Source of the DNA: Halorussus halophilus
Lineage (GTDB): Archaea; Halobacteriota; Halobacteria; Halobacteriales; Haladaptataceae
Length of the DNA: 64,000 nucleotides
Direction of reading: 5' to 3'
NCBI RefSeq assembly: GCF_008831545.1
Contig: NZ_CP044523.1
Span: 2,480,001-2,544,000 of the forward strand
Made by a program: the position numbers and the translations under genes. How positions within the stretch are numbered: position 1 is the first letter of the stretch; every line of letters begins with the position of its first letter. The notes under the pieces were generated by a model. That model saw nothing but the letters and a program-made list of their open reading frames with translations. It was not told where the DNA came from and did not search any database. Positions 23,970-30,279 of the stretch are shown here, in pieces.

Positions 23970-24832
23970 GTGGATTGGGTCACATCGACGGTCTGTTCCA
24001 GCGACGACGACCCCCAGTTCAGTTGCACAGTGAAGTCGTCCGCCCGCTCGGGATAGTACGGACTGAGCGTTCGCGTCGCCGTGACAGTCTCGTCTTTCGG
24101 CACATCGACGGTGACCTCAGGCGTGTCCGAAATGACCGTCGCACCGAGTTCCGCGAGGAAGGTCCCGTCTGCGTGACCGACGTTTTCCACTGTAAATTCC
24201 ACGTCGAAGACTGCCCCTCGTTCCACCTCGTCAGGGACCTCGAAGTTCCGGACCTCGAACGCTGGCGGGTTGGCGAGCGCGTCGAGGTGCGTCGAGTCGA
24301 ACGACCACCTTCGTTCGTCTCCCCCTCCGACTTCCCCGGTCCAGACGAGCGAGACGCCGTCGGCGTCGAGCGGGGCGGGGACGGCGAACGCAATCTGGAT
24401 ACCCGCCGGTTCGCTGTGTAGCGGTTCTAGCGGAGACCACACCTCCGTATCGACGGCTTCACCGTCGGCCACGACTGCAAACGCCTTCTCGACGGCGAAC
24501 CCTAAGAGATGGTCTCGTTCTCCGATAGACGCGTCGGCCACGACGAACTGAACGTCTGGCTCGTAGTAGGGGTCTTTGTGGGTACCGCGATGGACAATCG
24601 TTCGCCGAACGTCGAGCGAATGGACCGTGACGGACTCACTGGTAGGTGTGATGTTGCTCGTAGACTCCTCGTCGTCCTCGTTCGGGGACGTATCGTCGTC
24701 ACTCGTCGGTGTATCGTCACTGGTGGTTGGGTCGTTCGCTGTCGTCGGAGTGCCAACGGCCTCGGAGCCAAGACATCCCGAGAGCGAGAGGGCACTGCCA
24801 GCGAGGGAGGCGAGCAGGTGGCGGCGGTGCAT
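23966..24832 (-). CDS. Tat-exported lipoprotein with CARDB-like domain
   Basis: 288 aa. Signal MHRRHLLASLAGSALSLSGCLG: Tat-like with lipobox SLSGC. A Thr/Asp-rich linker (about residues 25-65) leads to a beta-rich extracellular part. The C-terminal 100 residues (EVRNFEVPDEVERGAVFDVEF, TVENVGHADGTF, VTVDVPKDETVTATR) look like a CARDB/Ig-like adhesion module. Operon with the following lipoprotein (4-nt overlap). Probably surface-exposed; the ligand is unknown. Confidence 0.75.
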   Translation of the reverse strand: MHRRHLLASLAGSALSLSGCLGSEAVGTPTTANDPTTSDDTPTSDDDTSPNEDDEESTSNITPTSESVTVHSLDVRRTIVHRGTHKDPYYEPDVQFVVADASIGERDHLLGFAVEKAFAVVADGEAVDTEVWSPLEPLHSEPAGIQIAFAVPAPLDADGVSLVWTGEVGGGDERRWSFDSTHLDALANPPAFEVRNFEVPDEVERGAVFDVEFTVENVGHADGTFLAELGATVISDTPEVTVDVPKDETVTATRTLSPYYPERADDFTVQLNWGSSSLEQTVDVTQST

Positions 24833-24892
24833 ACCCTAGCTGGAAGCCCGCCGAGTAAATGTTTTCAGGAGACTGAAATAGCCGTTTCACCG

Positions 24893-27439
24893 ATGACCGA
24901 CTCCGACACGCTAAAGCAATTCCCGTTAGTCTTCGCCAATATGGACTATCACGAGGCGGCGAACTTCGTCTTCGACCTCCGTCGATTCCGGCCGAAACCG
25001 GGGACGGAATCGACTGCGGACCTGCTCGCCCACCTCGGGGACCCCCACGAGGGCGTCGAATACGTGCAGGTCGCGGGGTCGAACGGGAAGGGTTCGACCG
25101 CCCGGATGACAGAACGCGTCCTGCGGGAAGCGGGACTCTCTGTCGGCATCTACACCTCGCCGCACTTCGACGACGTACGGGAGCGAGTGCAGGTGGACGG
25201 CCGGAAGATATCGAAGCAGGCGCTCTCGGAGTACGTCGAAGCGGTTCGACCGTACGTCAACGACCGCGCCGCGGACGGCGAGGCACCGACGTTCTTCGAG
25301 GTAATGACCGGACTCGCGCTGTGGTACTTCGGCCGCGAAGACGTGGACGTGGCAGTACTCGAAGTCGGCATCGGCGGGCGACTCGACGCGACCAGCGTCG
25401 TGGACCCGGTCGCCAGCGCAGTCACGAGCGTCACGCTCGAACACACGGGCATCATCGGCGAGACCATCGAGGAAATCGCCCACGATAAGGCTCACGTCGC
25501 GCCCGAGGACAACCCCATCGTCACCGCGACGACCGGCGAGGCGTTCGACACGATTCGGGCCTACGCCCGCGACACGGTTCGCGTCGGCGAGGACAGCGAC
25601 GCCGACGTTCGAGTGAGCTACGACGGCCGGACGAACCACACCGAGGCCGCCGTCTCGCTAGCGGCCGACGACTGGCGCGTCGAGACATCCATTCCCCTCC
25701 TCGGAGAGTATCAGGCCCGCAACGCTGGTGTAGCCGCCGCGCTGGCCCGACAGGTTGCCGAGGAGAGGGAAGACGCCGAAGTCGATGAATCGACGCTCGC
25801 TCGCGGCCTCCGCAAAGCCGACTGGCCGGGGCGCTTCGAAGTCATGGGCACCGGGCCGCTCGTCGCACTCGACGGCGCGCACAACCCCGGTGCCTGCGAA
25901 GCCCTCGCCGAAACGGTCGCGGAGTTCGAGGGCGACTACGACGACCTGCATCTCGTCTTCGGCGCGATGCACGACAAGGACCTCCGCGGGATGGCCGACG
26001 CACTCCCGACACCCGACCGCGTGGTGGCATGCCAACCGAATCTGGACCGGGCAGAAGACGAAGCGGTCGTCGGACAGGTGTTCGAGGAGTCGGGCGCTGG
26101 CGAAGTCGTGACGCGAAACGCAGTCGAGGGCGCGCTGGAGAACGCTCTCGAATCTGCCTCCGAGGGCGACTTCGTGCTGGTCGCCGGGTCGTTGTTCGCG
26201 GTCGCAGAGGCACGCTCGCGGTGGACCCGCGCCGAGATACCGAAGCGAATCAGCAACTTGTCGGAGGCCAGAGAAGCCCTCGAAGGCTCGCACGTCACCG
26301 ACCCCGGCGTCTGGCGGATGCGCGGCAAGGCCGTCCACCGCGTGCTGAAGAGTCGCGTCCAGACGCGGCAAGCCCGCTATCTCAAAGAGGAGATGCTGAG
26401 TTTGGGCGGCGAGTGTGCCCTCTCGGGCCTGAACGAACAGGACGAGGAGAACATCGACGTCGTGCTGATGGGCACGCTAGCGCAGTTCAAACGCCTCGCG
26501 GAGAAACTGGACGGCCAACCGTACGGCCTGTCAGTGTTCGCCGACGAGGTTCGCGAATCGCTGGACATCCAACAGGACCCCGACCTGCGGGGATATCCGT
26601 GGGAAGACGGCACGGCCGTCATGGGCGTCCTGAACGTCACGCCAGACAGTTTCCACGACGGCGGCGAGTTCGAAGCCGAGGAGGCCGCAGTCACACACGC
26701 CGAGGAGATGGTCGAAGCTGGCGTCGATATCATCGACGTAGGCGGCGAGAGTACGCGGCCCGGCGCAGACGAGATTTCCATCGAGGAGGAGATTTCGCGG
26801 GTGGTGCCAGTAATCGAGGCGATTTCGGACCTCGACGCGTCGGACGAATCCGACGCGCCCAACGCGCCCGACATCCTCGTCTCCATCGACACCCGGAAGG
26901 CCGAAGTCGCCGAGGCCGCACTGGAGGCTGGAGCAGATATCCTGAACGACGTGTCCGGACTCGAAGACCCCGAGATGCGCTTCGTCGCGGCCGATTACGA
27001 CGTGCCAATCGTCGTGATGCACAGCATCGACGCGCCCGTGGTACCGGACCGAGACGTGCACTACGACGACGTAGTGGAGGACGTGATAGACGAACTGGAA
27101 GAGCGCGTCTTGCTGGCCGAGAAGGCCGGACTCGACCGCGAGCAGATTATCGTGGACCCCGGACTCGGCTTCGGGAAGCAGGCCAGCGAGAGCTTCGAAC
27201 TGCTCGGGCGCACCGACGAGTTCCACGCGCTCGGTTGTCCGGTCCTCATCGGCCACTCCCACAAGTCGATGTTCGGCCTAATTGGCGAAGACGACGACAG
27301 AACGGCCGCGACGGTAGCGGGGACGACGCTCGCCGCCGAGCGCGGTGCCGACATCGTCCGCGTCCACGACGTGCCGGAGAACGTCGCGGCGGTGCGAGCG
27401 GTGGAAGCCGCAGACGACGCGGAGCAGTTCGAAGAGTGA
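24893..27439 (+). CDS. folCP: Bifunctional folylpolyglutamate synthase / dihydropteroate synthase
   Basis: 848 aa. Residues about 55-440 are FolC: the P-loop VAGSNGKGSTAR, IYTSPHFDDVRERV, VLEVGIGGRLDATSV and LDGAHNPGACEAL. Residues about 470-570 form a linker domain (ARYLKEEMLSLGGECAL, VVLMGTLAQFKRLAEKL) seen before some DHPS. Residues about 575-848 are FolP: MGVLNVTPDSFHDGGEF, DVGGESTRPGAD, SIDTRKAEVAEAAL, IVDPGLGFGK and GHSHKSMFG. Dihydropteroate formation and polyglutamylation are thus fused, as in other haloarchaea. ATG 24893 is chosen; ATG 24941 (MDYHEAANF) is an equally plausible start and gives 832 aa. Confidence 0.93.
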   Translation: MTDSDTLKQFPLVFANMDYHEAANFVFDLRRFRPKPGTESTADLLAHLGDPHEGVEYVQVAGSNGKGSTARMTERVLREAGLSVGIYTSPHFDDVRERVQVDGRKISKQALSEYVEAVRPYVNDRAADGEAPTFFEVMTGLALWYFGREDVDVAVLEVGIGGRLDATSVVDPVASAVTSVTLEHTGIIGETIEEIAHDKAHVAPEDNPIVTATTGEAFDTIRAYARDTVRVGEDSDADVRVSYDGRTNHTEAAVSLAADDWRVETSIPLLGEYQARNAGVAAALARQVAEEREDAEVDESTLARGLRKADWPGRFEVMGTGPLVALDGAHNPGACEALAETVAEFEGDYDDLHLVFGAMHDKDLRGMADALPTPDRVVACQPNLDRAEDEAVVGQVFEESGAGEVVTRNAVEGALENALESASEGDFVLVAGSLFAVAEARSRWTRAEIPKRISNLSEAREALEGSHVTDPGVWRMRGKAVHRVLKSRVQTRQARYLKEEMLSLGGECALSGLNEQDEENIDVVLMGTLAQFKRLAEKLDGQPYGLSVFADEVRESLDIQQDPDLRGYPWEDGTAVMGVLNVTPDSFHDGGEFEAEEAAVTHAEEMVEAGVDIIDVGGESTRPGADEISIEEEISRVVPVIEAISDLDASDESDAPNAPDILVSIDTRKAEVAEAALEAGADILNDVSGLEDPEMRFVAADYDVPIVVMHSIDAPVVPDRDVHYDDVVEDVIDELEERVLLAEKAGLDREQIIVDPGLGFGKQASESFELLGRTDEFHALGCPVLIGHSHKSMFGLIGEDDDRTAATVAGTTLAAERGADIVRVHDVPENVAAVRAVEAADDAEQFEE

Positions 27440-27492: not shown

Positions 27493-28227
27493 GTGTCCCG
27501 CTTCGAGATTCACCCCAGCACGAAGCTCTTCTTCGTCCTCCTCGCCGGTCTCGCCCTCCTGTTCAATCCCTTCGTGCCGGGCATCCACATCGGCGACGGT
27601 GACGTGTACCGCTACGAGGCCGCACAGGTCGAGTATCAGGACGACGGGAGTTTGCAGGCGACGAGCGTGCGGAGTGGCGAGGTGCGCGAGAATCTGCCGA
27701 TAGACGACGAAATCATTTGCACTCGTCTCGGTGTCAGTCGCAGGTGCCAGTTCGAGTACCACGTCCTGAACGGCGGTAACGTCTCGACTATCGGAATCGG
27801 CGGCGCTCGCTACGAGTACGCGTATCTCGGCGGGCGACTGTATCGGCCCGACTCTGTCGGCGAGCGCGGCGACGAGCGGATGACGCTCGAACCGGTGAAC
27901 GACTCGGACCCGCTCGCATCCGTCGCCACGCAAGACACCTCCTCGACAGAGCGTCGCCTCGTGAACGAGGGACGAATCAAGACCTACCGCGAACTGCCGC
28001 ACGAAGAGCAACTCGTCGAAGTAGACGGCGAGTACTACACCATCTACGCGACCGCACACCGGTCGTTCTACGGACTCGGCGGCGCCAGTCGGTGTGTCAG
28101 CAGCGGAGACGGCTTCTGCGAATCCGCCAACCAGAAACGACTGGTCGATACCGGCCTCACGCTCGCGTCGTGGCTCGCTGGCTTGTGGCTCCTCCTACGA
28201 GTGCGACGTCGAATGCGGCGGTCGTAG
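27493..28227 (+). CDS. Membrane-bound haloarchaeal protein, large member of the local paralogous set
   Basis: 244 aa, GTG start at 27493. N-terminal helix LFFVLLAGLALLFNPFVPG; C-terminal helix GLTLASWLAGLWLLL followed by a basic tail (RVRRRMRRS), so the middle is exported. That part ends TYRELPHEEQLVEVDGEYYTIYATAHRSFY, the same (D/E)Q..V / DG.YY pattern as in the proteins at 16445, 17290 and 23544. Four Cys lie in the exported part (CTRLGVSRRC, CVSSGDGFC). It follows folCP by 53 nt. Function unknown. Confidence 0.68.
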   Translation: MSRFEIHPSTKLFFVLLAGLALLFNPFVPGIHIGDGDVYRYEAAQVEYQDDGSLQATSVRSGEVRENLPIDDEIICTRLGVSRRCQFEYHVLNGGNVSTIGIGGARYEYAYLGGRLYRPDSVGERGDERMTLEPVNDSDPLASVATQDTSSTERRLVNEGRIKTYRELPHEEQLVEVDGEYYTIYATAHRSFYGLGGASRCVSSGDGFCESANQKRLVDTGLTLASWLAGLWLLLRVRRRMRRS

Positions 28228-28287: not shown

Positions 28288-28663
28288 ATGCGAAAGGCAG
28301 TAGCATTGGAGAAATGAAAGGTTTTCGATAGACTCGCTCGAACACGCGCGAACCGACCGCATCGGAGAGTTGTTCCTCCGCGAGACGCTCCGAAGCAAGG
28401 GCGTTAGTTCCGAGCGTGCGGTCGCCGCGGCCGACGGGTGGACGAACGACCGGATGGACTACTTCCAGACGAACGAGTCAACGGTCGTCACGTGGAGAGT
28501 CACTTGGCAGAACGCGGACGAACGAGCCGAGTTCGTCGAGACGTACGACTCTGTGTACGACTACGAACGAGTGAACTCCCTCGATGCAGTGAGTTGTCGA
28601 GAACCGGGACGGTACCTCACGACCAGCAAAAAAACGGTAACCGTCGTGCAGTGCGGCGATTAA
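28288..28663 (+). pseudogene. Internally deleted exported-protein gene (C-terminal remnant)
   Basis: A start survives (ATG 28288, MRKAVALEK then TGA), but the coding body lies in another frame: from the stop at 28301 the frame reads FSIDSLEHARTDRIGELFLR, ETLRSKGVSSERAVAAADGW, VVTWRVTWQNADERAEF, ending CREPGRYLTTSKKTVTVVQC and TAA 28661-28663. No in-frame start precedes it except a late TTG at 28370. The composition reads as genuine haloarchaeal protein, reminiscent of the C-terminus of Hvo_1808-type surface proteins (from memory, weak). I infer a gene that lost its middle and its frame. Its stop overlaps the stop of the minus-strand remnant. Confidence 0.6.
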
Positions 28664-28911
28664 CAGCAGGTAATCGGGTCACAGCACTGATCGACGGGTT
28701 GTTCGTAGCAACTGGTCGAACCGTCGGGGTACAGACAACAGATGCGCTCGTGGAGCGTCTGCATCGACTACAGAACGTACAGCAGGCACTCGGCGGACAC
28801 GTGTAGCCGTCCTGACCGCACGTCTTCTGCGTCGTCACGTCGTCGCTTGAGGGTCGCGGCGGTCGCCCCGATTGCCTTCAGGAAGTTACGTCGGTTATGT
28901 TCTTTCGTCAT
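28660..28911 (-). pseudogene. Cys-rich Tat-exported small peptide gene with two compensating frameshifts
   Basis: ATG 28911 opens MTKEHNRRNFLKAIGATAATL, a clear Tat signal. The frame then degrades (KRRRDDAED) and stops at TAG 28768-28770. A neighbouring frame carries the sensible continuation SSDDVTTQKTCGQDGYTCPP then SACCTFCSRC, and the first frame resumes after the TAG with ERICCLYPDGSTSC and YEQPVDQCCDPITCC before TAA. Read together this is a peptide of about 80 residues with 14 Cys, the architecture of halocin-like or other Cys-rich secreted peptides (inference). Two offsetting indels, near 28850 and 28770, would explain it; sequencing error is the alternative. It is not a simple ORF in any single frame. 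Confidence 0.6.
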
Positions 28912-29076: not shown

Positions 29077-30213
29077 TCAGAACATGACAACCAGCAACGC
29101 GACCAACGCGACGACGAGCACGACGCCACCGACGACTGCGGCGGGCACCAGCAAATTCTGCTGCTCGCGGGCGTCGTCGTAGGCGTCGAGATACTGCTGT
29201 AACACCTCGCGCTCGTCGTACTCCGCGAAGTTCTCGTTGAAGTCCATCTGCTCCATGTCACCCGCTTCCCGGAGTGCGTCGGTCAGTTCCTGCTCGCTAG
29301 TCGTGCGGAACGCACGCTCTTCTTGCTCGACCAGTTCGTGGGCGCTCGACTCGACGTGATACTCCACCACGCCCGCACAGCCACAAGCCAGCGCGCGGAG
29401 CAAATCGGTCGGGAACGCCTCGCGGCGTGCGGTCTGGGCGTAGACGTGCGCTCCTTTGAACGCCGCCAACCGGTTTTCGAGCGATTGGTCGCCTGCGAAC
29501 TTGACCCTGTCCTCGATTCGCAGGTCTCGGACCTGTCGTTCGTAGTTGTCGCGCTCCGGACCGTCGCCGATAACGACCGCCGACCAGTCGCGGTCACGGA
29601 GTTCCGCCAAGGCGAGCAACAGACTCTCCAGATTGGCGTCCTCGTCCAGTCGGCGCGAGTAGACGATTTGGGCGGCGTGGCGCGGTTCGGTCGATTTGAT
29701 GGTGTCGATGTCGATGCCGTTGGGAACCACGCGAACCGCGTCTTCCTCCGCACCGAGTTCTCTGATGCGGGTCTTGACGGTGTTCGACGGCGAGAGAACG
29801 AGGTCCGGGACGCTCGCGGCGAGTTTCCACATCGGGTCGTTCTGGTCGCCGGTTTCGGGTGCTTCGTACCAATCGACCACCAACGGGGCGCGAAGGGCGG
29901 TGCTGGCGGTTTTGGCCGCCAACACGTGCGACGGAACTGGGACGGCTTGAATCACGTCCGGGTCGATTTCGCGGAGAATCAGCGGGAGCGACGCGGCGAA
30001 CTTCCTCGATTCGCTCGGTGGGTCGGTCGTGACCGCTCGATAGGTCACGTCGTTCTGTTCGAACTGCTCGTGGTCGCCCTCCCACCACTGGGCACAGCAG
30101 ACGAAGACCTCGTGCCCTCGTCCGGCGAGCGCCTCGGCGACCCAGCGGGTGCGACGAGTCGTCCCCGTCGCACGGTGTTGGGCTACCGTCTCCGAGACGA
30201 GCGCGACGCGCAT
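29077..30213 (-). CDS. GT4-type glycosyltransferase with C-terminal membrane anchor
   Basis: 378 aa. GT-B fold: N-terminal Rossmann (MRVALVSETVAQHRATGTTR, AEALAGRGHEVFV), linker VVPNGIDIDTI and donor domain IVYSRRLDEDANLESLLLAL, VVIGDGPERDNYE. In the E-x7-E region (REAFPTDLLRALACGC) the second Glu is replaced by Arg, so nucleotide-ribose binding may differ. Uniquely, the C-terminus is a single hydrophobic helix (VVGGVVLVVALVALLVV), making it tail-anchored with the catalytic part in the cytosol. It is isolated, not in a glycan cluster. ATG 30213 is preferred over 30225. Confidence 0.85.
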   Translation of the reverse strand: MRVALVSETVAQHRATGTTRRTRWVAEALAGRGHEVFVCCAQWWEGDHEQFEQNDVTYRAVTTDPPSESRKFAASLPLILREIDPDVIQAVPVPSHVLAAKTASTALRAPLVVDWYEAPETGDQNDPMWKLAASVPDLVLSPSNTVKTRIRELGAEEDAVRVVPNGIDIDTIKSTEPRHAAQIVYSRRLDEDANLESLLLALAELRDRDWSAVVIGDGPERDNYERQVRDLRIEDRVKFAGDQSLENRLAAFKGAHVYAQTARREAFPTDLLRALACGCAGVVEYHVESSAHELVEQEERAFRTTSEQELTDALREAGDMEQMDFNENFAEYDEREVLQQYLDAYDDAREQQNLLVPAAVVGGVVLVVALVALLVVMF

Positions 30214-30279
30214 ACGAAGCGCCACGAAGCGGCCCCCTAAAAACCCAACTCTTTTGCTCGGATAGAACGCCAGAGCCAG

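Follow-up and report, generated by a model that had tools for sequence, protein, structure and literature searches.

A probable relic gene in Halorussus halophilus and the widespread haloarchaeal family of putative Tat-exported, cysteine-rich precursors to which it belongs

What kind of gene left the remnants found at positions 28660-28911, on the minus strand, of a 64,000-nucleotide stretch of Halorussus halophilus DNA (contig NZ_CP044523.1; the whole stretch analysed is called the window below)? The first-pass annotation had read this region as a hidden gene for a secreted, halocin-like peptide with 14 cysteines, broken by two offsetting indels. Our analysis indicates that the feature is almost certainly a pseudogene, the relic of a putative Tat-exported two-part precursor. 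The pseudogene belongs to a widespread family that none of the libraries searched names.

All three pieces of the proposed reading, namely a Tat signal frame, the neighbouring frame and the first frame again, were located on the minus strand. The frame opening at the ATG at 28911-28909 encodes a Tat signal remnant (28849-28911), which reached the cut-off of the Pfam model TAT_signal (E 8.7e-05) and exceeded that of the NCBIfam model TIGR01409. According to the frame map, this remnant is almost directly fused to a Cys-rich tail. The first half of the tail (28770-28850, minus strand; 5 Cys) lies in the second frame and contains KTCGQDGYTCPPSACCTFC, and the second half (28660-28764, minus strand; 7 Cys) runs to a stop codon at 28662-28660; both halves were identified by tblastn with intact orthologues and by codon comparison. 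The frame map also confirmed two breaks separated by about 80 nt, one near 28849 and the other within 28769-28765. Joined, the pieces contain 12 Cys instead of the 14 first counted.

When the joined reading was searched against 18 Halorussus genomes, as the first-pass annotation had suggested, the composite proved to have intact homologues in three congeners, H. ruber (G011), H. aquaticus (G002) and H. amylolyticus (G001), which were the strong matches in long open frames besides the window. The weak matches of the joined query at L022, L023, L006 and L007 looked unrelated and were set aside. The intact proteins have 263-264 aa with pairwise identities of 55-58%, and in each the Tat signal precedes a Cys-free middle region of some 150 residues, while the tail, 53 aa long, carries 12 Cys, every one of which is retained in the relic. 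Used unjoined as tblastn queries, these proteins matched both relic pieces, each in its own frame (56-78% identity over 27-34 aa for one and 57-74% over 35 aa for the other; E-values from 1.5e-17 down to 4.8e-21 in the syntenic set). The three orthologues are also extended at the N-terminus, where a second RR-like motif stands ahead of the Tat signal (L003:1498-2292, minus strand, residues 1-30), and similar extensions occur in some other family members (G023, L086, L089).

DNA alignment with the three intact orthologues showed that the window lacks roughly 450 nt, corresponding to the middle region, and that its signal region lies almost against the start of the tail. This deletion, with its junction at 28845-28851 (minus strand), caused the frame change near 28849. 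The other lesion (28765-28769, minus strand) is a single missing base, with 5 nt against 6 in the intact orthologues, and returns the reading to the first frame. The picture of a Tat-signal, Cys-rich gene broken twice thus stands, but only the second break is a small indel; the first marks where a large segment was deleted. Since so large a part was lost from within the gene, the short peptide obtained by joining the pieces was never itself a product; the ancestral protein had about 264 aa.

The three intact genes occupy the same slot as the relic, beside the same GT4-type glycosyltransferase gene (29077-30225, minus strand, in the window), which every one of the 18 Halorussus genomes searched contains and which served as a syntenic anchor. 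In G016, the anchor is split into two overlapping pieces (L049, L050), likely by a frameshift. On the far side, the slot is anchored by a plus-strand ORF at 24509-27439, which has counterparts in L051, L054 and L057 and a fragment in L003; we take it, by eye, to be folate-synthesis-like. A 244 aa ORF in the slot (27493-28227, plus strand) has homologues in the slots of G014, G017 and G008 and a weak one in G006, and it had no match in Pfam or NCBIfam. We compared the slot in the 17 congeners. An intact pair, consisting of the peptide gene and a convergent gene for an Hvo_1808-like protein, was found in three, the Hvo_1808-like gene alone in two (G007 and G005), and neither gene in 12, one of which (G015) ends at a contig edge; the window retains parts of both. 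The stop-codon ends of the two genes share 4 nt in H. ruber, as they do in the window. In a glycosyltransferase tree of 17 of the 18 genomes (G016 was omitted for its split gene), the pair was scattered, with support too weak to separate one ancient gain followed by losses from repeated exchange.

To follow the family beyond Halorussus, a first profile of the three intact proteins was run over 391 Halobacteria genomes, and 73 of them matched at E<=0.01, many of the matches spanning the Tat signal alone. We then translated 16 matches from among the best and aligned 14 of them with the three proteins (alignment A2, 17 rows; L082 and L083 were omitted here and included in the cysteine count of 37 ORFs described below). 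At E<=1e-8, the A2 profile gave one or more matches in no fewer than 39 of the 391 genomes, a sample that includes those supplying A2 rows, and in at least 20 of 86 genera; these are lower bounds because at most seven candidates were scored per genome. One profile match, L091, was rejected as false since it does not have the Cys-rich tail. The H. halophilus genome itself carries three intact, divergent paralogues elsewhere.

The RR and L residues are invariant in all 17 members of A2, five of which matched Pfam TAT_signal at E<=0.1. The middle region is Cys-free in 16, and the single Cys of the seventeenth lies at the border of the tail; the tails have 44-72 aa and 8-14 Cys. A further member (L177:1498-2163, minus strand) has 22 Cys after the RR motif, with a tail of about 60 aa. 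Family genes stand in a row as local arrays with different tails in G185 (three genes) and G076 (two genes) (L087, L089), and G017 has a divergent pair. Two distant members with 6 Cys each, both annotated as 'hypothetical protein', are on Halorussus plasmids; a second plasmid query gave no match, and the viral contigs contained 12 stretches with the pattern and no relatives. Another match of the joined query, in G019, is a short ORF with a Tat signal and a Cys-rich C-terminus and without a middle region (L024:1501-1857, minus strand); it could represent a distinct class of small Tat peptides.

In Pfam and NCBIfam, only the Tat-signal models covered the family, and any other hit was weak and confined to one member. 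PADLOC and PHROGs gave no match at E<=0.01, and a profile search of the PDB gave weak hits only, the best (E 0.065) being on the signal region. An AlphaFold2 model of the intact precursor from a three-row alignment was uninformative (mean pLDDT 37.5). Full-text searches of openly accessible literature yielded no description that we recognised as this family.

The comparison with halocins deserved closer attention. ProC8, the 283 aa precursor of halocin C8, leaves the cell through Tat and is processed to HalI and HalC8 (PMC11509114). The family shares two traits with the halocin C8 precursors (TIGR04449, halocin_C8_dom): a Tat signal at the N-terminus, and a precursor, encoded by a single gene, in which a pre-region is followed by a Cys-rich domain at the very C-terminus. 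However, the H. ruber protein did not match TIGR04449 at E<=10, nor did any of the 17 members at E<=0.1. C8-type genes occur in eight of the 18 Halorussus genomes, and when A2 was compared by hhalign with an alignment of four C8-type Halorussus precursors (A4, which is shallow), only 25 columns of the Tat signal aligned; as far as the shallow A4 can tell, the pre-regions are not homologous. The family tails, judged by eye, are also more Cys-dense and differ in Cys spacing. The likeness to halocins therefore holds for the two-part architecture and does not extend to membership in the halocin C8 family: at most, its members would function in the manner of C8 precursors while being distinct from them.

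A second precedent concerns the release of the peptide. In PMC12893001, extracellular proteases free antagonistic peptides from secreted haloarchaeal precursors, as with HmHapP / HFX_0892 and the halolysin HlyR4, which offers a precedent for the putative cleavage step in the family. The activity there resides, by contrast, in a helical segment at the N-terminus, and the main text of that paper makes no mention of cysteine.

The number of cysteines was examined as a sign of disulfide pairing. By a fixed rule, 34 of 37 ORFs have an even number of Cys C-terminal to the RR motif; once two Cys excluded by the rule are counted, the number is even in 36, and the only ORF that stays odd is truncated, at 130 aa. 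A second set of ORFs was even in 14 of 14 cases (eight new relative to the first set and six repeated). These counts include related members and are hence non-independent, and in a crude control of non-family ORFs the number was also mostly even (16 of 20 with at least 4 Cys; 31 of 44 with at least 2 Cys), which weakens the support. We regard the parity as supporting, not decisive, evidence for disulfides.

We propose, with a probability of roughly 0.5 for the explanation as a whole, that the feature is what remains of a gene whose product was exported by Tat and gave rise to a secreted, disulfide-rich peptide acting on neighbouring haloarchaea. The precursor, judging from its signal, would most likely be exported by Tat; the Cys-rich tail would form disulfides, and an extracellular protease would release it as a small disulfide-rich peptide, probably microhalocin-like, which would act on neighbouring haloarchaea. 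The producer would be protected by the middle region or, in the Halorussus subtype, by the adjacent Hvo_1808-like surface protein. The sequence comparisons establish the relic, almost with certainty, as well as the synteny, the family and the architecture, whereas Tat export, disulfides, cleavage, antagonism and immunity are inferred. An antagonistic or antimicrobial role appears the most likely one for the family, at a little below even odds. In the lineage of the window, a deletion took most of the middle region, the tail lost one base, and the partner gene lost its first ~270 codons.

The strongest competitor accepts the relic and the family and denies the antagonism: the tails would be extracellular Cys-rich domains for metal binding, surface stabilisation or signalling, a reading to which we give appreciable weight. 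Cys-dense tails such as that of L177 with its 22 Cys resemble metal-binding proteins, so the tail could bind metal; an obvious partner gene is missing at most of the loci examined; and the toxin, defence and halocin families searched gave no match. Against it, the middle region is conserved (mean pairwise identity in A2 of 0.225) whereas the tail varies freely (0.108 outside the C-C columns), the genes occur in tandem and divergent copies, and their presence is patchy. Since a variable tail, tandem or divergent copies and patchiness would be expected of peptides in an arms race more than of a housekeeping role in metal binding, we prefer the antagonistic peptide.

The partner gene raises another possibility, which we consider unlikely: instead of serving as a weapon, the tail would inhibit, or otherwise pair with, the neighbouring Hvo_1808-like surface protein, which resembles a metalloprotease. 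In Haloferax volcanii, Hvo_1808 is a processed Sec substrate with a lipobox and is mostly cell-associated (PMC2945643). In the window, the partner is a convergent C-terminal remnant (28325-28663, plus strand; 72% identity, E 1.3e-47; weak NF038145 match) keeping about residues 274-383 of 385. The partner matched the C-terminal part of the Hvo_1808 family model NF038145 (E 1.8e-11), yet with 44 bits it did not reach the curated cut-off of 200, and the full HExxH found in Hvo_1808-like relatives is mostly missing. AlphaFold2 modelling of the partner from a three-row alignment gave a mean pLDDT of 34.6. The first-pass annotation had suggested looking for immunity or transporter genes beside intact copies; the neighbour is not a transporter but this surface protein, which may or may not confer immunity.

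In favour of the inhibitor, the partner adjoins the peptide gene convergently in Halorussus and lies immediately downstream on the same strand in G149, which belongs to another family, and a more distant form adjoins the gene in G346; in addition, relatives of the partner carry HExxH. On the other side, the partner was present at only three of 29 loci (L069-L097), namely G149, G346 and the window, so it belongs to a subtype. The motif is kept in G011 (HELNH) and G007 (HELSH), whereas G002, G001, G005 and G149 have lost the second His, so many partners would be inactive as proteases, and its region is missing from the window remnant. Besides, G007 and G005 have the partner without the peptide gene. 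At most of the family loci examined (nine stretches of 7-9 kb, with neighbours chosen by a crude composition rule), no obvious dedicated partner was seen, which suits single-gene halocins but equally many other roles.

The state of the locus leaves little room for a functional gene. An intact syntenic orthologue and inactivating lesions are both in evidence, and three separate lesions affect two genes: the ~450-nt deletion, the one-base loss and the truncation of the partner. That the breaks are sequencing or assembly errors in an intact gene is highly improbable; the sample includes a single genome of the species, but errors do not typically combine a large deletion, the loss of one base and a separately truncated neighbour, and the assembly comprises 4 contigs at 99.98% completeness. 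Nor do we give credence to a functional short peptide made through two programmed frameshifts, for which the still low dN relative to dS in the tail could be cited: it would require two shifts within 80 nt, the middle region of the full-length relatives is missing, Rfam gave no match over the region, and RNA folding there was unremarkable (z 0.39). We found no repeats or promoter or terminator patterns at the region that account for the lesions.

The loss is probably recent compared with the species split, as judged from the tail, which has drifted no further than its intact counterparts: 39-45 of 61 residues are identical between the relic and the intact tails, against 43-44 of 61 among the intact ones, with dN of 0.20-0.28 and dS of 0.94-2.03 in the codon comparison. 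For the Tat signal, DNA alignment found no close match to the signal of the orthologues, so it could derive from another gene.

A bolder picture, which we offer only tentatively and hold to be doubtful as it stands, is a haloarchaeal arsenal in which a conserved Tat-exported carrier would be fused to diversifying, fully disulfide-paired mini-proteins with 6 to 22 Cys, in a layout that may be likened to animal venom and defensin precursors. The carrier would act as a chaperone or confer immunity, one subtype would have a decayed metalloprotease-like surface protein as a second protector, and the window would record the recent loss of one such gene.

The relic alone is ordinary, and the interest lies in the family, which has no curated model and is annotated as hypothetical proteins in the two records examined. 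Few halocins are known at the sequence level. Disulfide-rich secreted precursors in at least 20 of 86 sampled haloarchaeal genera would offer many candidate archaeal antagonistic peptides, and also cases for the study of extracellular disulfide formation in saturated salt; the relic shows that genes of this family are lost recently and patchily within one genus.
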